Shown in pieces: positions 29,995 through 38,999 of a stretch of 38,999 nt of DNA. The translations under genes and the position numbers were made by a program. The stretch comes from Bacteroidota bacterium (GTDB taxonomy: Bacteria; Bacteroidota; Rhodothermia; Rhodothermales; Bin80), in assembly GCA_028875125.1 (NCBI GenBank), contig JAPPGC010000082.1:1-38999 (forward strand), in the 5' to 3' direction. The first letter of the stretch is position 1; each line of letters starts with the position of its first letter. The notes beneath the pieces were generated by a model. The model was given only the letters and a program-made list of their open reading frames with translations, was not told where the DNA came from and ran no database searches.

Positions 29995-31281
29995 ATGATC
30001 TGGAACAAATTAAGCAAGCATGCTGACTTGGGTCTGCTCATATTTCGAGTGGGTTTTGGACTTGGCATGTTGATCTTCCACGGCTGGGGTAAACTAACGG
30101 GCGGTCCTGAGGCGTGGGCTAATGTTGGTGGAGCTGTGGAGATTTTCGGTATTGGTTTTGGCCACACATTCTTTGGATTCCTTGCAGCCCTGGCTGAGTC
30201 AGTTGGTGCTATATGTATTGTGCTTGGACTATTCTACCGCCCGGCATTGACTGCTCTTGGTTTGACCATGCTCGTGGCAACCCTGATGCACATTACCACT
30301 GGACAGGGAAGCCCTGCACATGCCATCAAAAACCTGTCCATTTGTGCAGGTATGCTGTTTGTTGGCCCCGGTAAATACAGCCTGGATTGTGGCCTCGGAC
30401 GAAAAGCTACAGGATCTGCCGCAGTATTGGCACTGGCCTTATTCCTCGTTCCCGGTAGCGCTATTGCGCAACACAGCACCGTGCATGACGAACTGAAGCT
30501 GCAGAGCGATATCCTGGATTCAGAACGAAAATACGCAGTCTATCTGCCACCGGACTACCATACAAGTGAGCGCAGTTATCCGGTTCTTTACTTGCTGCAT
30601 GGTGCAGGAGATGATCAGACTGGCTGGATTCAGTTTGGTGAAGTCCGTCATATCGCGGACAAAGCAATCCGAGCAGGGAAGGCAACGCCAATGGTGATCG
30701 TAATGCCCGACGCGAATACCGGAGTTCGTGGTTATTTCAATGACGTGAGCAACACTTGGCGGTACGAAGACTTCTTTTTTGAGGAGCTGATGCCCCATGT
30801 AGAAGAGCGATTCCGAATCAAGTCCCAGAAACGCTATCGCGCAGTTGCTGGACTCTCAATGGGCGGTGGCGGCTCTTTCATGTACGCGCTTCACCGACCT
30901 GACCTCTTCTCCTCCGCTGCACCACTGAGTGCCTGGGTTGGACCCAGTTCGGTAGAGCAATACAAGAATACTATGGAACGATGGGGAAATGACATATCAA
31001 CTGTTTCAGACGAGGAGATTGAATCCTATGTGAAACGGCACAATGCAGTAGAACTGATCCGGTCGCTGCCGGCAGAGGATATCGGATCAGTCCGCTGGTT
31101 CATAGACTGCGGTGACGACGATTTCCTGTATGAAGGCAACTCGCTGGCACACATTGAAATGCGGAAACGCGAAATCCCACATGAATTCCGCATCCGGGAT
31201 GGCGGACACACATGGACCTACTGGCGTGATAGCCTGCCCACAGTGCTTCACTTTGTTTCACAGGCATTCCATCAATACTAA
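29995..31281 (+). CDS. DoxX-domain / alpha-beta hydrolase esterase fusion protein
   Basis: A 428-residue single frame joining two families. Residues 10-135 are a DoxX-type membrane domain with four helices (RVGFGLGMLIFHGWGKLTGG, then LAESVGAICIVLGLF). A further hydrophobic stretch, residues 139-158, ends in GSAIAQ and resembles either a fifth helix or a former signal peptide. Residues about 165-428 are a putative esterase (PF00756-like): nucleophile Ser288 in GLSMG, acid Asp373-376 and His405 in GGHTW. The hydrolase would lie outside the cytoplasmic membrane, tethered by DoxX. No frameshift or internal start that separates them is evident. It leads an operon with the DUF5916 and cytochrome-Vgb genes (13- and 17-nt gaps). 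The substrate is unknown. Confidence 0.82.
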   Translation: MIWNKLSKHADLGLLIFRVGFGLGMLIFHGWGKLTGGPEAWANVGGAVEIFGIGFGHTFFGFLAALAESVGAICIVLGLFYRPALTALGLTMLVATLMHITTGQGSPAHAIKNLSICAGMLFVGPGKYSLDCGLGRKATGSAAVLALALFLVPGSAIAQHSTVHDELKLQSDILDSERKYAVYLPPDYHTSERSYPVLYLLHGAGDDQTGWIQFGEVRHIADKAIRAGKATPMVIVMPDANTGVRGYFNDVSNTWRYEDFFFEELMPHVEERFRIKSQKRYRAVAGLSMGGGGSFMYALHRPDLFSSAAPLSAWVGPSSVEQYKNTMERWGNDISTVSDEEIESYVKRHNAVELIRSLPAEDIGSVRWFIDCGDDDFLYEGNSLAHIEMRKREIPHEFRIRDGGHTWTYWRDSLPTVLHFVSQAFHQY

Positions 31282-31294
31282 TAGGACTAAGGCT

Positions 31295-33553
31295 ATGCCT
31301 CAGCCGGTAAAATGGCGTGCCTTACTGCGTGCCGCAATTGTGGTCTGCGCAGTGTTTCCATTGATGTCAGCGAGGTCCCAATCTCAATCTGTTGAGACCG
31401 ACTCCCCCTTTATTCCAACAAGGCTTACCGGTCCTATCGAAATAGATGGATTTATCAACGATTCGGCCTGGGATGAGATTGTCCCACTGCCTCTGGTCAT
31501 GTACGAACCTATATTCAGAGGGGCTCCGTCTGAGCGAACGGATATTCGTATTGCCTATGACGATCAGTATCTGTACTTGGGAGGAAATCTGTATGACAGT
31601 AATCCGGATGGAATTCGAGCTAATTCTATGTACCGGGACTTGTATAGTGGTGATGACACCGTAAGTCTCATATTGGATACTTTCAATGATCGTCAAAATG
31701 GACTGTGGTTCTTTACCAACCCAAATGGGATTCGTGCCGATATGGCCATTTCCAATGATTTGGAGGGAAGTGTAGGAAGCCCCTTTGGAACTGTCATTAA
31801 TTCGAGCTGGAATACATTTTGGGATGTAGCTACACAGGTGACAGATATGGGATGGTCCGTTGAAATGCGGATACCCTTCACCAGTCTGGGTTTCCAATCC
31901 GAAGAGGGAGTAGTTGAGATGGGCTTTTCGGTGACACGTCAGATCGCAAGGAAAAACGAAACCCAAGTTTTTCCTGCAATACCGCCGAATTGGAACATGT
32001 CCTTCGCTAAGCCTAGCCAACTTGGCCGTATCCAATTGCGCGACGTACGCGCAGGGCGCCCGTTATATATCACGCCCTATGTATCAGGCGGAGGCGCTAC
32101 GGAAGCCAATCTCCTGGAAGACGAATCAAAGTATGAACACAAATCAAACTTGACCGGAGATATAGGAGGTGATGTGAAGTACAATATCACCAACAACCTG
32201 ACACTCGACTTAACTGTCAATACCGACTTTGCACAAGCGGAGGCAGATGACGAGCAGGTCAACCTGACTCGTTTTTCCCTTTTCTTCCCTGAAAAGCGCA
32301 GATTCTTTCAGGAGCGTGCCGGAATCTTTGATTTCCGAACGGCAGGACGGTTCGACAGACTCTTCAATACACGTCAGATTGGCCTATACGAGGGAGAAAC
32401 TGTGCCCATATTTGGAGGGGCTCGCCTTGTGGGTCGTATTGGTAGCTGGGATGTTGGGGCTATTAACATGCAAACCGCTGCTGCTCATGGGAATCCATCC
32501 GAAAATTTTGGCGTCTATCGTCTACGTAAACAGGTATTCAATCCCAATTCATACGTGGGTAGCATGGTCACCACAAGGATTGCATCAAATGGATACTGGA
32601 ATGCTGTGTACGGCCTTGATAGCCAGATTAAGGTAGGCAGCCGAGAGTACCTTGAATTCAAGTGGGCGCAAGTGTTTGACGAAGCCGTTCCCAATATCAC
32701 GCTTCGAGACAACAGCTATGCGCGTGCACGTATTGAGCGGCGAACTGAGATCGGATTTGCATACTCCCTGTCATCGACTTGGGGAGGGCCCAATTTTGAA
32801 CCCGGTATGGGGTTTGTCTCACGTACTGGCTTCATCCAGCCATTCTTCACACTCAGTTACGGCTGGTTTGCTAGCGAAGCTTCCAAGGTTCTGTCTATGC
32901 GTCCACGTCTCTTGCTTGCACAATTCCGGCGTGACTCGGATGGCAGCCTCGAAACTGGCGCTTATTGGTTCAGCTGGTTCGTTTCGATGAAATCTGGAGC
33001 ATTTCATACATTTGAGGTGCAAGCACGCACGGAAGACCTACATGAAACCGTAGAATTCCCCGAGGACACTGAAGTGCCTATCGGCAAATACAGTTTCTAT
33101 AATCTCGGATGGGAGTATATGGCACATAGTGGACGTCTCTTTCGTGTGGATGGGTCTGCGACGGTCGGAAATTTTTACGACGGTACCAATATTGAAATTC
33201 AGGCAGAGCCCACATGGAACCTCTCGCGTCATCTAGAGCTTGGGGCAACCTATCAGTTTAATCGTGTACGATTTCCAGACAGGGGGCAGGCCTTTTTTGT
33301 GCATGTCGCTCGTATTCGGACACAGATTGGTTTTTCGACACAAGCCAGTATTAATGCCTTCCTGCAGTACAATACTGCATCTGATGTGGTCTCAGCAAAT
33401 GTTCGATTTCGCTACAACTTCCGCGAAGGAAATGACCTCTGGATAGTCTATAATGAAGGACGCAACACCGACCGTCTGAGTAGTGATCCAGAATTGCCAT
33501 TCCTGGACGGTCGAAGAGTACTCATGAAGTACACCTACACATTTATCCGTTAA
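31295..33553 (+). CDS. DUF5916 outer-membrane protein with CBM9-like domain
   Basis: A 752-residue exported protein. A signal peptide (LLRAAIVVCAVFPLMSARSQS) ends near residue 30. Residues about 46-230 form a family-9 carbohydrate-binding-like domain (GPIEIDGFINDSAWDEI, YDDQYLYLGGNLYDS). The rest is a DUF5916 beta-rich region with LTLDLTVNTDFAQAEADDEQ and FFPEKRRFFQE, the most conserved part of this family, and a C-terminus ending in aromatic YTYTFIR, as in outer-membrane barrels. The family is common in Bacteroidota and its function is unknown. ATG 31295 is chosen because it begins the signal peptide; the frame is open to 31112 inside the upstream gene. It starts 13 nt after the DoxX-esterase gene and ends 17 nt before the cytochrome gene. 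Confidence 0.85.
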   Translation: MPQPVKWRALLRAAIVVCAVFPLMSARSQSQSVETDSPFIPTRLTGPIEIDGFINDSAWDEIVPLPLVMYEPIFRGAPSERTDIRIAYDDQYLYLGGNLYDSNPDGIRANSMYRDLYSGDDTVSLILDTFNDRQNGLWFFTNPNGIRADMAISNDLEGSVGSPFGTVINSSWNTFWDVATQVTDMGWSVEMRIPFTSLGFQSEEGVVEMGFSVTRQIARKNETQVFPAIPPNWNMSFAKPSQLGRIQLRDVRAGRPLYITPYVSGGGATEANLLEDESKYEHKSNLTGDIGGDVKYNITNNLTLDLTVNTDFAQAEADDEQVNLTRFSLFFPEKRRFFQERAGIFDFRTAGRFDRLFNTRQIGLYEGETVPIFGGARLVGRIGSWDVGAINMQTAAAHGNPSENFGVYRLRKQVFNPNSYVGSMVTTRIASNGYWNAVYGLDSQIKVGSREYLEFKWAQVFDEAVPNITLRDNSYARARIERRTEIGFAYSLSSTWGGPNFEPGMGFVSRTGFIQPFFTLSYGWFASEASKVLSMRPRLLLAQFRRDSDGSLETGAYWFSWFVSMKSGAFHTFEVQARTEDLHETVEFPEDTEVPIGKYSFYNLGWEYMAHSGRLFRVDGSATVGNFYDGTNIEIQAEPTWNLSRHLELGATYQFNRVRFPDRGQAFFVHVARIRTQIGFSTQASINAFLQYNTASDVVSANVRFRYNFREGNDLWIVYNEGRNTDRLSSDPELPFLDGRRVLMKYTYTFIR

Positions 33554-33570: not shown

Positions 33571-34806
33571 ATGAGCACCTCCTTGATCTATTCCTTACGT
33601 CTCACGCTAAGCTCATTACTGCTCGTGCTGATGAGTACAGCATCAATTTCTGCCCAGAACCGACAAAGTACTCCACTTCCAGAGGGACATGCAAAAGTAC
33701 TTGTAGAGCAGGCATGCACATCCTGCCACACGATCAGTGCTATCACTAGATCGGGGTTTGATGGCGTAGAAATGTGGCGGTCTGTGCAGGAGTCGATGAT
33801 TCAGTTACCCGAATCAGATGCCATCAGTATCGCCGAATACCTGGCTGAACATTTCCCTGCACGCGATGATCGGAAGCCAACCCTGGTTGATGGACCAGTT
33901 GAAATAGATATTCAGGAATGGACTGTGCCTACGCTGGGACAGCGCTCTCGGGATCCAATTGAAGCACCGGATGGATCCATTTGGTGGACTGGAATGTGGG
34001 CAAGCCTGGTAGGACATCTTGATCCTGTAACTGGCAACATGAAAGAATATCCCCTACCCCCTGAGGCAAGACCTCATAGCATTGTCCCCGATGAGGATGG
34101 CTTTATCTGGTACACCGGAAACAGTAACGGTACAATTGGCAAACTTGACCCGGCAACAGGAGACATTACTGAGTATCCAACCGAAGCAGGGGATCCACAT
34201 ACGGCAGTTTTTCATCCGAATGGTGACCTTTACTTCACTTCCCAGAGAGCGGCAATGCTGGGAAGGCTGAACCCTGTTACTGGAGAGCTCAAAGAAATAC
34301 CGACCGAGCCTCGCCCTTACGGTATCATCGTGGCTCAGGACGAAACTGTATGGATTGCCTACAATGGCACCAACAAACTCGGAGCCATGAATCCAGAATC
34401 AATGGAGGTCCAGTACTATACTGTGTCTGATCCAGATACGCGCATCCGTCGACTAGGTATTGACTCAAAGGGGATTATCTGGTTCGTGAACTCTTCCAAA
34501 GGGCGAATTGGCCGACTTGATCCTGCAACCGGTGAAATCAAGGAATGGGAGTCACCAAGTGGACCACGCTCCCATCCGTATTCTTTGGCTGTGATCAATG
34601 ATAAAATCTGGTACAATGAGTCTGCCATGCGCCCTGATGCTTTGGTTCGTTTCGATCCAGAAACAGAATCTTTCCAGAGCTGGGCTATCCCCAGTGGTGT
34701 GGGAATCATCCGGCATGTATGGGTTACACGCGAAAACAAGCTGCTCATCCACCAGAGCAGTTCCAACCGAATAGGCCTGGTAACCATAAAGGAACTGGCT
34801 AATTAG
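33571..34806 (+). CDS. cytochrome c / Vgb-like beta-propeller fusion protein
   Basis: A 411-residue exported protein. After a signal peptide (about residues 1-29, ending SISAQ) comes a short c-type heme domain with CTSCH at residues 49-53. A candidate Met axial ligand is Met76 in ESMIQLP. From about residue 112 there are repeated units of the virginiamycin-B-lyase (Vgb/streptogramin lyase-like) propeller: GHLDPVTGNMKEYPL, GKLDPATGDITEYPT, GRLNPVTGELKEIPT and GRLDPATGEIKEWES. Such repeats make a seven-bladed sheet that binds ligands. The heme suggests an electron-transfer or sensing role in the periplasm. It is the third gene of the DoxX-esterase operon. Assay-level function cannot be inferred; true Vgb catalytic residues were not checked. 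Confidence 0.82.
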   Translation: MSTSLIYSLRLTLSSLLLVLMSTASISAQNRQSTPLPEGHAKVLVEQACTSCHTISAITRSGFDGVEMWRSVQESMIQLPESDAISIAEYLAEHFPARDDRKPTLVDGPVEIDIQEWTVPTLGQRSRDPIEAPDGSIWWTGMWASLVGHLDPVTGNMKEYPLPPEARPHSIVPDEDGFIWYTGNSNGTIGKLDPATGDITEYPTEAGDPHTAVFHPNGDLYFTSQRAAMLGRLNPVTGELKEIPTEPRPYGIIVAQDETVWIAYNGTNKLGAMNPESMEVQYYTVSDPDTRIRRLGIDSKGIIWFVNSSKGRIGRLDPATGEIKEWESPSGPRSHPYSLAVINDKIWYNESAMRPDALVRFDPETESFQSWAIPSGVGIIRHVWVTRENKLLIHQSSSNRIGLVTIKELAN

Positions 34807-34920: not shown

Positions 34921-35023
34921 AGGGTACACGTGGGCGACCAGTTTGATCAGCGCTCATAGTGAGGTATCGTAAGTTGTGATGCCGGGGGCTAGGATTGCAT
35001 GCATCCGGAGAGGGTGACGAACC
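34921..35023 (+). repeat. 5' leader shared by the two WD40 genes, copy 1
   Basis: Upstream of the first WD40 gene: blocks AGGGTAC, GGGCGA and GTGAGGTATCGTAAG (34959-34973) and the Shine-Dalgarno GGAGAGGGTGA (35007-35017), followed by CGAACC and the ATG. The same blocks in the same order precede the second WD40 gene (38076-38186). The region before it (34807-34920) contains TCTACGTGTAGA but no clear terminator for the cytochrome operon. Confidence 0.75.
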
Positions 35024-37177
35024 ATGAACATGAAACACGGGATCGTAGTATTGACACTTGCGCTGTCTGCGTCCGCTGCAGGACAGGGAATTTGGACGAT
35101 CACGGATGCAGGACACTCTTCAATAGTTACTTCTGTGGCGTTTTCACCGGACGGCACGCTATTTGCCTCTGGGTCAGCGGACAAAACGATTCGCCTGTGG
35201 GAAGTAGCTACAGGAAAGGAGTTACGACGCTTCAAAGAGTCGATACCTTCGTCAATTCTTTCCCTAGCATTTTCACCGAACGGCTCGCAGCTAGCTTCTG
35301 GATCAAGTGGTGGTAGGACCTGTCTGTGGAATGTCGCCAAAGGGCAGGAGGTATGGTGCTTTGAAGGACCCACTAAGGTTTTTTCCGTGGCATTTTCACC
35401 AGACGGTGCGCTGCTGGCTACTGGGATAGATACCAGAGGAGTAGACCATACGATCCGTACATTCATTGTAGCCACAGGGCAGGAGGTGCGACACTTCGGA
35501 GGGAATTCACATACAGTTTATTCCCTAGTATTTTCACCGGACGGAACACAGATTGCCTCTGGATCAAACAACGGGACTCTCAGTCTGTGGGATGTAGCCA
35601 CGGGGCAGGAGGTGCGACGCTTTGAAGGGTATTCAGTTTATATTAGTTCCGTAGTATTTTCACCGGACGGCTCGCTGCTGGCTTCTGGGTCAGGGGATAA
35701 TACGATCCGTCTGTGGGATACGGCCACTGGTCAGGAAGTGCGAATCTTTGAGGAACATACCGGTTCGGTCCTTTCCGTAGTATTTTCGCCGGACGGTACG
35801 CAGCTGGCTTCTGGGTCATATGACAATACGATCCGTCTGTGGGATGTAGCCACAGGACGGGAGGTACGGCGCTTCAAAGGGCATACACATCCTGTTTATT
35901 CCGTGGTGTTTTCACCGGATGGTTCGCAGTTGGTTTCGGGAGCACATGACTGGAGTCTCCGTCTGTGGGATGTAGCGACGGGCCTGGAAGTGCGGCGCAT
36001 CAGAAGCCACACAGCTTGGATTGGTTCCGTAGTTTTTTCTCCCGATGATACGCAGCTGGCTACTGGGTCACATGACAATACAGTCCGTCTGTGGGATGTG
36101 ATCACGGGGCAGGAGGTGCGACGCTTTGAAGGACATACACATCGCGTTCACTCCGTGGCATTTTCACCAGACGGTACACAGCTCGCTTCTGGATCATGGG
36201 ACGATTCCATCCGCCTATGGGATATAGCCACGGGACAGGAGGCGCAGCGCTTTGAAGGACATACTGGTAATGTTACTTCCGTAGCATTTTCACCGGACGG
36301 CACGCAACTGGCTTCGGGGTCAGATGACTGGAGTCTCCGTCTGTGGGATCTTGCCACGGGACAGGAGATACGACGCTTTGTAGGCCACACAGGTAGCGCT
36401 AATTCCGTAGTATTTTCACCGGACGGGACGCTCCTGGCTTCTGGATCAGATGACCGTACTATCCGTCTGTGGGATGTAGCCACCGGACTGGAGACGCGAC
36501 GCTTCGAAGGGCACATAGCTAACGTTAATTCCGTAGTATTTTCTCCAGATGGCACACAGTTGGTCTCTGGATCATGGGACAGTACGATCCGTCTATGGGA
36601 TGTAGCCTTGGGACAGGAAGTGCAGCGCTTTGAAGGGCATGCTGGTAATGTTACTTCCGTAGTATTTTCACCGGACGGTGCGCAGTTGGCCTCTGGATCA
36701 CAGGCTGTTATGATAACATTTCGTAGACACGACAATACGATTCGTCTGTGGGATATAGCCACAGGACGGGAAATAGACCGGCTAGACAGTGAATACCCTG
36801 TTTACTCTATAGCTATTTCCGGGAGTGAACGCTTTATCGCATCGGCTGGAGCAACAGCAATCAGGTTATGGGATGCCAAGGCTACAGCATTGGAAACGGT
36901 GCCCCCCTCAGGTTTAGAGGTCCCAGCAACATTTACGCATTACCCGAATCCCGCGGGAGCATTCACTACAGTCGAATACGCGCTTCCAAAGGCGACTCAA
37001 GTCCAGTTGTCAATCCATGATCTTCTTGGACGCGAGATAGTCAGTATGCTGGATGCGACTCAGGCGGCTGGTTCTCACAGTCTGCAACTGTCCACCCTGC
37101 AGCTTTCGGGAGGGATTTATTTTCTGCGGCTTATCACTGATGACACGCAGGTGACACGACCGCTAGTCGTACGCTGA
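35024..37177 (+). CDS. secreted WD40-repeat protein with type IX secretion sorting domain
   Basis: A 717-residue protein. A signal peptide (MNMKHGIVVLTLALSASAAG) precedes about fourteen WD40 units of some 42 residues, each with FSPDG near the start and RLWDVATGQE at the end. Fourteen units can form two seven-bladed propellers. Units 3 and 13 carry longer inserts, and the last is degenerate. Residues about 634-717 are a T9SS type A sorting domain: FTHYPNPAG, VEYALPKATQVQLSIHDLLG, then GIYFLRL. The product should cross the outer membrane and be surface-attached or released. The ATG has a strong Shine-Dalgarno, GGAGAGGGTGA, 6 nt upstream. It is paralogous to the gene at 38187. The propellers likely bind proteins or glycans; the target is unknown. 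Confidence 0.92.
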   Translation: MNMKHGIVVLTLALSASAAGQGIWTITDAGHSSIVTSVAFSPDGTLFASGSADKTIRLWEVATGKELRRFKESIPSSILSLAFSPNGSQLASGSSGGRTCLWNVAKGQEVWCFEGPTKVFSVAFSPDGALLATGIDTRGVDHTIRTFIVATGQEVRHFGGNSHTVYSLVFSPDGTQIASGSNNGTLSLWDVATGQEVRRFEGYSVYISSVVFSPDGSLLASGSGDNTIRLWDTATGQEVRIFEEHTGSVLSVVFSPDGTQLASGSYDNTIRLWDVATGREVRRFKGHTHPVYSVVFSPDGSQLVSGAHDWSLRLWDVATGLEVRRIRSHTAWIGSVVFSPDDTQLATGSHDNTVRLWDVITGQEVRRFEGHTHRVHSVAFSPDGTQLASGSWDDSIRLWDIATGQEAQRFEGHTGNVTSVAFSPDGTQLASGSDDWSLRLWDLATGQEIRRFVGHTGSANSVVFSPDGTLLASGSDDRTIRLWDVATGLETRRFEGHIANVNSVVFSPDGTQLVSGSWDSTIRLWDVALGQEVQRFEGHAGNVTSVVFSPDGAQLASGSQAVMITFRRHDNTIRLWDIATGREIDRLDSEYPVYSIAISGSERFIASAGATAIRLWDAKATALETVPPSGLEVPATFTHYPNPAGAFTTVEYALPKATQVQLSIHDLLGREIVSMLDATQAAGSHSLQLSTLQLSGGIYFLRLITDDTQVTRPLVVR
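35114..36884 (+). repeat. tandem WD40-coding repeat array in the first WD40 gene
   Basis: About fourteen tandem units with a usual period of 126 nt (42 codons). The block that encodes VVFSPDG (consensus GTAGTATTTTCACCGGACGG) and the one that encodes IRLWDVATG recur with few changes. Units have diverged more from one another than in the second gene, which has several nearly identical units. Confidence 0.85.
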
Positions 37178-38075
37178 TCTAGAATAGGAGCATCGAACGT
37201 CCTTGGAATGAATTGAGTCTGTAGCTGGAACCCGTTGAGTTCTTCGGTTTAATGGAGAGGCACAACATCGCAGCCTGTTCCATGAAAAAACGATTTTCTT
37301 TTCTCGTTGAGCACGACGAGCTTCAAGCCGCCCACACATCTTGAGAATCTCAATTATCCTCATCCGAACGTTCTCGCAACGTGACAGTGCCTGTAGCTCC
37401 ATCAGTTCTGCCGGAATACTATCCCGATTATAGGAATCAATCTGGGTGTCGGCAATCGGAACGTGCCCAAGTTGAACTGCGAATCGTGAGTCTTGCGCAG
37501 AACAGAGGAAGAGAAATACCCCGATTCGTACCCTCTGTCATGGCGAACACTAGAATCAGAAATGGATTGGAAGGGCATTACCCTCTGGTGTGAATGGCCG
37601 AGGGCAGTCTCCGTATAAACAGCACCAACCGTCGGCGCATACCTAAATCCCCTCAGTTTCCTGATCTACCCCCTTGACAGCAACTGCAAAAGGTTATCCC
37701 ATCCCTCACGGACAAATACAAAACCGCATGGAGTAGGATCAAGTAGTTCCCACAAAAACTGATATAGCTCCTGGGCTATTTCTGCGGACAATTGTACAAC
37801 TCAGACAATCAGCCCGTGCAGCAGCGTGATTCGCAGCAACCTGATCCCAATTGACCACATGCCAGAACGCGGCAATATAGTCGGGACGATGATTCTGGTA
37901 ATTCAGGCAGTTCGCATGCTCCCAAACGTCCAACCCGACGATGGACGTATAGGAGAACGAAACGAACATTTGCGTTCATGCTCGGAGATAGATCGGGAGC
38001 CCGAGGCGAGAAATAGTGGAGTTTTAGGGCCAAATTTGCTACGTTAAGTAAGGAGTCTGGGCGACTAGTTGGGCT
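37178..38075. other. non-coding stretch with gene debris between the WD40 genes
   Basis: About 900 nt without an intact gene. A superoxide dismutase remnant is on the minus strand (37814-37942). Another minus-strand stretch, 37666-37801, reads like a protein C-terminus ([16 protein letters not shown], then GWDNLLQLLSRG and a stop) but matches no family I know. Plus-strand frames at 37381-37593 are uninformative. No IS end, inverted repeat or terminator was recognised. Confidence 0.5.
37814..37942 (-). pseudogene. superoxide dismutase (Fe/Mn) C-terminal remnant
   Basis: The minus-strand frame gives [10 protein letters not shown], then [23 protein letters not shown]. This is the C-terminal signature of Fe/Mn superoxide dismutases, in which the Asp and His of D-x-WEH bind the metal and [13 protein letters not shown] are conserved. 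The usual AYY after WEH reads ANC. Upstream, on the minus strand, the same frame soon meets stops and no longer resembles the family, and the downstream tail is foreign. Only about 40 residues of a roughly 200-residue enzyme remain, so this is a dead fragment, perhaps cut off when the second WD40 gene region was inserted. Confidence 0.8.
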
Positions 38076-38186
38076 AGGGGTACGTCTGGGCGATCTGGAG
38101 CGTTCAAAGCTTGGGGTGAGGTATCGTAAGCTGCGATGCCGGATGTCTGATAAGACATTGTATACATCCAGAGAGGGTGACGAACC
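38076..38186 (+). repeat. 5' leader shared by the two WD40 genes, copy 2
   Basis: AGGGGTACGTCTGGGCGA, GTGAGGTATCGTAAG (38116-38130) and the Shine-Dalgarno GAGAGGGTGA (38171-38180) appear in the same order as before the first WD40 gene, with CGAACCATGAACATGAAA in common across the start. The block GTCTGGGCGA also occurs twice within 40 nt (38055 and 38085). The leader duplicated together with the gene. Confidence 0.75.
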
Positions 38187-38999
38187 ATGAACATGAAATA
38201 CGGGATCGTTGCGTTAACGTTTGCGCTGTCTGTGCCCGCTGCGGGGCAGAGAATTTGGACGATAGTAGAGACGGGACACACTTCGTCTGTTCGTTCCGTG
38301 GCATTTTCACCGGACGGCATACTACTAGCTTCTATATCATCTGACAATTCGATCCGTCTGTGGAATGTGGCTACGGGGCGGCTGCTACGGCTTCTTAAAG
38401 AGCCCAGAACACTTGAAGGTTATTCTGTGGCATTTTCACCGGACGGCACGCAGCTGGGTTCTGGAGCAAGCTACGGTTTGATTCTTCTGTGGGATGTGGC
38501 CACGGCGAAGGTGGTGCGGCGCTTTGGAGGGCATTCAAGTTATGCTAATTCCGTGGCATTTTCACCGGACGGTACGCAACTGGCTTCTGGAGAAAGCGGC
38601 CGTTTTATCCGTCTGTGGAATGTGGCCACGGGGCAGGAAGTGCGACGCTTTGAAGGACACGCACGTGGTGTTAATTCCGTGGCATTTTCACCGGACGCTA
38701 CGCAGCTGGCTTCGGGGTCACGGGACTTAACGATCCGTCTGTGGCGTGTAGCAACAGGACAGGAGCTGCGGCGCTTTGAAGGGCATACGAATTGGGTCTA
38801 TTCAGTAGTATTTTCACGGGACGGCGCACAGTTGGCTTCGGGGTCACTTGATGGTACGATCCGTCTTTGGGATGTAGCCACGGGACAGCAGGTGCGGCGC
38901 TTTGAAGGACACGCACGTGGTGTTAATTCCGTGGCATTTTCACCGGACGGCGCACAGTTGGCTTCGGGGTCACTTGATGGTACGATCCGTCTTTGGGAT
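38187..38999 (+). CDS. secreted WD40-repeat protein, 3' end beyond the window
   Basis: An open frame of 271 codons from ATG 38187 to the window end without a stop, hence a partial gene. The N-terminal MNMKYGIVALTFALSVPAAG is a signal peptide closely similar to that of the first WD40 protein. Six complete or nearly complete WD40 units follow, with the same FSPDG and RLWDVATG landmarks. The nucleotide period is 126 nt. Unit 1 is followed by one unit with a 1-codon length difference. Later units are almost identical at the DNA level. A T9SS domain beyond the window is likely by analogy but is not seen. The Shine-Dalgarno GAGAGGGTGA lies 6 nt upstream of the ATG. Confidence 0.88.
   Translation, partial: MNMKYGIVALTFALSVPAAGQRIWTIVETGHTSSVRSVAFSPDGILLASISSDNSIRLWNVATGRLLRLLKEPRTLEGYSVAFSPDGTQLGSGASYGLILLWDVATAKVVRRFGGHSSYANSVAFSPDGTQLASGESGRFIRLWNVATGQEVRRFEGHARGVNSVAFSPDATQLASGSRDLTIRLWRVATGQELRRFEGHTNWVYSVVFSRDGAQLASGSLDGTIRLWDVATGQQVRRFEGHARGVNSVAFSPDGAQLASGSLDGTIRLWD
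38301..38999 (+). repeat. recently homogenised 126-nt WD40 repeats
   Basis: The block GCATTTTCACCGGACGG (or variants) starts at 38301, 38430, 38556, 38682, 38808 and 38934: a spacing of 129, then 126 nt. Segments 38646-38697 and 38898-38949 are identical over 52 nt. Segments 38819-38873 and 38945-38999 are identical over 55 nt, up to the window edge. Identity at third codon positions points to recent duplication or gene conversion. Confidence 0.85.

Follow-up and report, generated by a model that had tools for sequence, protein, structure and literature searches.

The two WD40 genes at the end of the window (the whole stretch of 38,999 nucleotides that was analysed, C10:1-38999 of its genome) are tandem members of a small, probably exported double beta-propeller family of one Rhodothermales genus. 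The family is surface-directed and evolves by exchange of blades, probably for recognition. The main reading, to which a probability of about 0.6 is assigned, is that these tandem double propellers are exported, hold a constant 14 blades, have their binding face remodelled by blade exchange, and bind variable partners. A fuller version is put tentatively, at somewhat below even odds: that the family forms a T9SS-exported surface recognition repertoire, its binding faces rapidly remodelled as parts of blades and entire propellers are exchanged while the blade number stays the same, with diversifying selection at the face positions known from fungal non-self recognition receptors.

The genome holding the window comprised 129 contigs and was 98% complete. 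Its source is a marine-type bacterium with one close sponge-dwelling relative. Species were compared within the genus, namely the window's own (G000), G001, G003 and G004. Public records name two relatives, the MAGs Rhodothermales p16x33bins.37 and Rhodothermaceae bin80; the latter is G001, obtained from the sponge Aplysina aerophoba and assembled from Illumina plus PacBio reads (PMC5649159).

Gene 1 (35024-37177, + strand) is a complete ORF of 717 aa encoding a WD40 double propeller, as indicated by its profile units and by Pfam models. A blade profile made for the analysis resolved 14 units of 42 residues in it, and only about 30 residues precede the first blade. Matches to WD40 (PF00400) lay far above the cut-off, in 13 stretches of gene 1 and in seven of the right part of gene 2, and propeller Pfam models also matched gene 1. 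The AlphaFold2 model of gene 1, built from a 7-sequence alignment (single-sequence input gave a pLDDT of 45), predicted 56 strands in the propeller region, mostly with pLDDT >80, which corresponds to 14 four-stranded blades. Among solved structures, the highly repetitive propeller protein 2ymu came closest both in sequence and in fold. The 14 blades are most simply taken as two 7-bladed propellers, the arrangement formed by the 14 blades of 2ymu and of WRAP from Nostoc punctiforme (PMC9218822).

Gene 2 begins at 38187 and its 5' part, with blades 1-6, is an open ORF up to the window end (38187-38999, + strand), recognised by its family match and its blade units. Past a scaffold gap it continues with blades 7-14 and a sorting domain, and ends at C10:40403; the gene is in frame if the gap stands for one base (813+1+1304 = 2118 nt). 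The N-terminus of gene 1 (35024-35086, + strand; MNMKHGIVVLTLALSASAAGQ) and that of gene 2 were both signal-peptide-like, as judged by eye. A T9SS type A sorting domain (TIGR04183) was matched in gene 1 at 36941-37171 (+ strand; 49.0 bits, cut-off 23), and a second search put it at the same site. The same domain was found at the 3' end of gene 2, past the gap, where the earlier note had proposed to look for it (36.0 bits), and in a third paralogue (49.5 bits). The genome of the window encodes T9SS machinery (SprA, 1688 bits, and the PorV family) and holds about 55 sorting-domain matches. The sorting domain should place the WD40 proteins on or outside the cell surface.

The third paralogue, on contig C54 (L011 4952-7099), is open apart from a single in-frame TAA in blade 4. 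About 2 kb downstream of it lies a decayed sorting-domain fragment with three stops (C54:20814-21005). On the same contig, a 60-residue N-terminal fragment is duplicated at 67% identity (L011 7360-7539 and 9318-9497), upstream of an 873-aa gene. A second and more distant WD40 sorting-domain subfamily, also of 14 blades, was seen at L078, L079, L080 and L075 14258-16663; its member at L079 carries an exact internal repeat of 102 nt.

The order of genes was the same in G000, G003 and G004 (genes at 31112-33553 and 33571-34806 in the window, the WD40 pair, and superoxide dismutase), and in G001 a single WD40 gene followed the same upstream genes. Immediately downstream of that single gene, G001 has a 600-aa gene that by eye resembles a transposase gene (L093 5573-7375), at the place where the other species have the second WD40 copy and the superoxide dismutase. 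Between the WD40 genes of the window lies a vestige of a superoxide dismutase gene, from its 3' part (37838-37954, - strand; 79% identity over 39 residues to the intact gene at L010 7033-7647). A similar remnant in G004 indicates that the tandem duplication is old and preceded the species split. The leader upstream of gene 1 (34959-35023, + strand) has a copy upstream of gene 2 (38116-38186); this duplication comprised a 27-nt family at 93% identity and a 246-nt family at 76%, and the leader-region alignment ran from 34959 to L010 4117.

Gene 2 had been reported to contain segments identical over 52 nt (252 nt apart) and 55 nt (126 nt apart). Both identities were exact, and no other exact direct repeat anywhere in the window was as long, the next being 30 nt. 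The 52-nt repeat covers the front half of blade 4 (38646-38697, + strand; columns 8-25, with face residues R, G and N) and the front half of blade 6 (38898-38949, + strand). The 55-nt repeat occupies 38819-38873 and 38945-38999 (+ strand), its second copy being cut by the scaffold gap. As a null, whole codons of gene 2 were permuted among its blades, separately for each of the 42 columns (400 trials); the longest in-phase exact run then averaged 24.9 and reached a maximum of 45. Both repeats outran this null, so a conserved blade motif is not enough to account for them.

The gap adjoining the window end consists of 100 N (C10:39000-39099, equal to L010 5001-5100). The last 55 bases before it recur at 38819 and the first 55 after it at 38875-38929, and both matches end at exactly 55. 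Because both gap edges are recurring 55-mers, the figure of 55 nt very probably reflects the assembler k, and the pattern would point to a de Bruijn assembler that ran with k=55 and stopped at a loop. With a single missing base (G) in the gap, the true identical tract would be about 111 nt, its first copy running from the back of blade 5 to the front of blade 6 (38819-38929, + strand). Gaps in G003 likewise adjoin exact duplicates, of 55-58 nt.

These features of the contig end lend some weight to an assembly artefact, in which repeats or strain variants were collapsed or falsely joined, and a published comparison found that WD40 units of 126 bp can be wrongly left out or added when SPAdes assembles short reads (PMC12222747); a literature search on 100-N gaps of SPAdes returned nothing directly relevant. 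However, the 52-nt repeat is internal to the contig and falls short of 55 nt, the k-mer at which a de Bruijn contig ends is really shared, and gap-free genes in other genomes, including that of G001 with its PacBio reads, had exact internal repeats of 59-102 nt. The mosaic paralogues described below are also independent of gaps, except G003_C3b. A pure artefact was rejected on the internal 52-nt repeat, the gap-free repeats elsewhere and the mosaics, and an artefactual origin is considered quite unlikely. The caution that the identical segments could arise from assembly at a contig end was thus justified for the 55-nt repeat, whose apparent length was set by the assembly, but not for the 52-nt repeat or for the comparative data, which are independent of it.

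Between species, the flanking proteins were 88-97% identical (dN/dS 0.05-0.13) and the WD40 proteins 71-81% identical (dN/dS 0.36-0.43). Compared with its counterpart in G003, gene 2 kept positional orthology at blades 1, 2 and 8-14 and lost it at blades 3-7, and dS was about 0.5 in blades 3-7 and about 0.25 in blades 8-13. The identical tracts of gene 2 fall within this zone of blades 3-7. Blades 4-7 had no better match anywhere than among the blades of their own gene, and blade 6 is a composite of the front of blade 4 (face residues R, G and N) and the back of blade 5 (face residues L and G). The paralogues of other species are mosaics of propeller-sized blocks: G004_C20a and G004_C20c were 91-96% identical in blades 1-6 and 71-80% in blades 7-12, G004_C20a and G004_C20b were 83-91% identical in blades 10-13, and G003_C3b occupies slot 1 but is of the slot-2 type in its blades 8-14.

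High identity among blades could also mean that one unit was recently amplified, as happened in Nostoc WRAP, and that the genes have not gone on exchanging blades since. Blades within a gene were 65-88% identical in DNA, and amplification from single blades is widespread (PMC9218822). However, for most blades of gene 2 another species has an orthologue at the same position, which puts the array before the species split; identity within genes was patchy, and the paralogues are mosaics. Retained positional orthology and mosaicism together disfavour simple amplification, which is judged very unlikely. As the mechanism, the sequences best support segmental gene conversion, or else balanced unequal exchange, both inside single genes and among the tandem paralogues. 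The recent segmental copying or gene conversion proposed in the earlier note agrees with the repeats in excess of the null, the matches among blades of the same gene and the mosaic paralogues, and turnover between related species is borne out by the lost positional orthology, the raised dS and, again, the mosaics.

Blade number did not follow the same course. With the 42-residue profile, 14 blades were counted in 11 of the 12 genes of the near subfamily in G000, G001, G003 and G004, the sole exception being G004_C48a with 13. Gene 2 was counted as 6+8 = 14 across the gap, taken as one base; in G004_C30 an insertion interrupts one of the blades counted, and the C54 gene was read across its stop for blade counting only. 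The four intact genes of the second subfamily had 14 blades each, and the broken gene G003_C3b was compatible with 14. As 14 blades recurred in several independent assemblies, including one that used PacBio reads, repeat number does not vary as first proposed; this part of the earlier note was not supported across species, either by the near relatives or by the intact genes of the second subfamily.

The five most variable blade columns were 15, 33, 14, 35 and 17. In the fungal proteins HET-D and HET-E, codons 7, 9, 25 and 27 of the top face are reported to be under diversifying selection (PMC1805685), and these were mapped by motif to columns 15, 17, 33 and 35, a set named in advance. The dN/dS of this set was 2.06, against 0.25 for all other columns and 0.16 for the conserved positions between the face columns (16 and 34). 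Among 137 blades there were 122 distinct four-residue face combinations. Fixed-effects likelihood, applied to one tree of recombining units, gave dN/dS >1 at columns 10, 14, 17 and 33 (p of 0.01 or less); column 15 was marginal, column 35 was not significant, and most of the framework was under purifying selection. The AlphaFold2 model of gene 1 places the tested face columns within the d-a and b-c loops or at their margins. The expectation of fast change at propeller-face positions was therefore upheld by column variability, by the dN/dS of the four columns and by the likelihood analysis. Where gene 2 and the corresponding G003 gene are true positional orthologues (blades 8-13), the face-column dN/dS was 0.76, not >1, which indicates that much of the face change between species comes with replacement of blades.

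Relaxed constraint would account for variable blades in another way, with redundant paralogues drifting and recombining and having no recognition role. It would fit the TAA in the C54 paralogue, the decayed sorting-domain fragment near that gene and the 13 blades of G004_C48a. Relaxation should, however, raise the rate of all columns, but the framework is strongly purified and the nonsynonymous excess is confined to the face loops; it is disfavoured by this strong framework conservation and is regarded as unlikely.

Exchange of blades under constant number, the preferred reading, can be set out as follows. With blades that repeat each other and genes that stand in tandem, homologous recombination (gene conversion or balanced unequal exchange) would copy segments of one blade into another, and blocks the size of a propeller between paralogues. 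A constant 14 blades would be maintained by selection for folding. Copied tracts would bring their face residues along, and point mutation with diversifying selection at face residues, together with shuffling of the variants, would keep the binding face changing. The most likely role would be to bind variable surface partners, for instance glycans or proteins of a host, or bacteria nearby. That conversion is the mechanism, that the proteins are in fact exported and that they bind such partners is proposed from sequence comparison. As one relative is a sponge symbiont, recognition of a host or of microbes is a candidate role for the WD40 proteins. The naturally recombined propellers of the family could be used to test which residues of the face determine specificity, and they are a warning that WD40 genes of this kind may be misreported in short-read genomes.

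Sponge-associated bacteria are known for eukaryotic-like repeat proteins, WD40 proteins among them (PMC8163846), and the relative G001 likewise came from a sponge. Sponge surveys, however, count repeat genes, and WD40 was not enriched in that of PMC8163846. The literature search found no report joining T9SS with WD40 and none of WD40 blade turnover in sponge-associated bacteria; nor did it find the combination of T9SS export, nearly constant blade number, exchange of propeller blocks and matching face positions.

Among bacterial proteins, WRAP of Nostoc punctiforme (Npun_R6612) and 2ymu are likewise WD40 proteins with 14 blades and high blade identity (PMC9218822). The blades of WRAP are nearly identical and derive from one recent amplification, and the protein has a STAND ATPase, whereas here the blades are older, were reshuffled piecemeal and are part of proteins built for T9SS export. 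The HNWD proteins of Podospora anserina (HET-D, HET-E and HET-R; PMC1805685, PMC2873952, PMC12222747) likewise have units of 42 residues (126 nt) with high internal identity, exchange within and between paralogues, pseudogene members and failures of short-read assembly. Their four diversifying face positions have a probable counterpart here in columns 15, 17, 33 and 35 taken as a set. Concerted evolution of units within and between paralogues, as in HNWD, was found here in a partial and patchy form, not a complete one. HNWD proteins are, however, cytoplasmic NACHT receptors of variable repeat number, whereas the present family has a signal-peptide-like N-terminus, a T9SS sorting domain and an approximately constant 14 blades. 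No NACHT or HET domain was present in gene 1, where the roughly 30 residues before the first blade leave no room for one, and membership in HNWD was rejected on the absence of these domains and on a repeat number that does not vary across species. Highly repetitive bacterial propellers of 14 blades (PMC9218822) and positively selected, concerted evolution of fungal WD40 repeats (PMC1805685) are already known, and the present family shows a known evolutionary mode in a new setting, that of putatively T9SS-exported bacterial propellers. If this reading is right, bacteria independently reached the solution of fungal HET-D and HET-E, but in a surface-directed form and with a constant number of blades.
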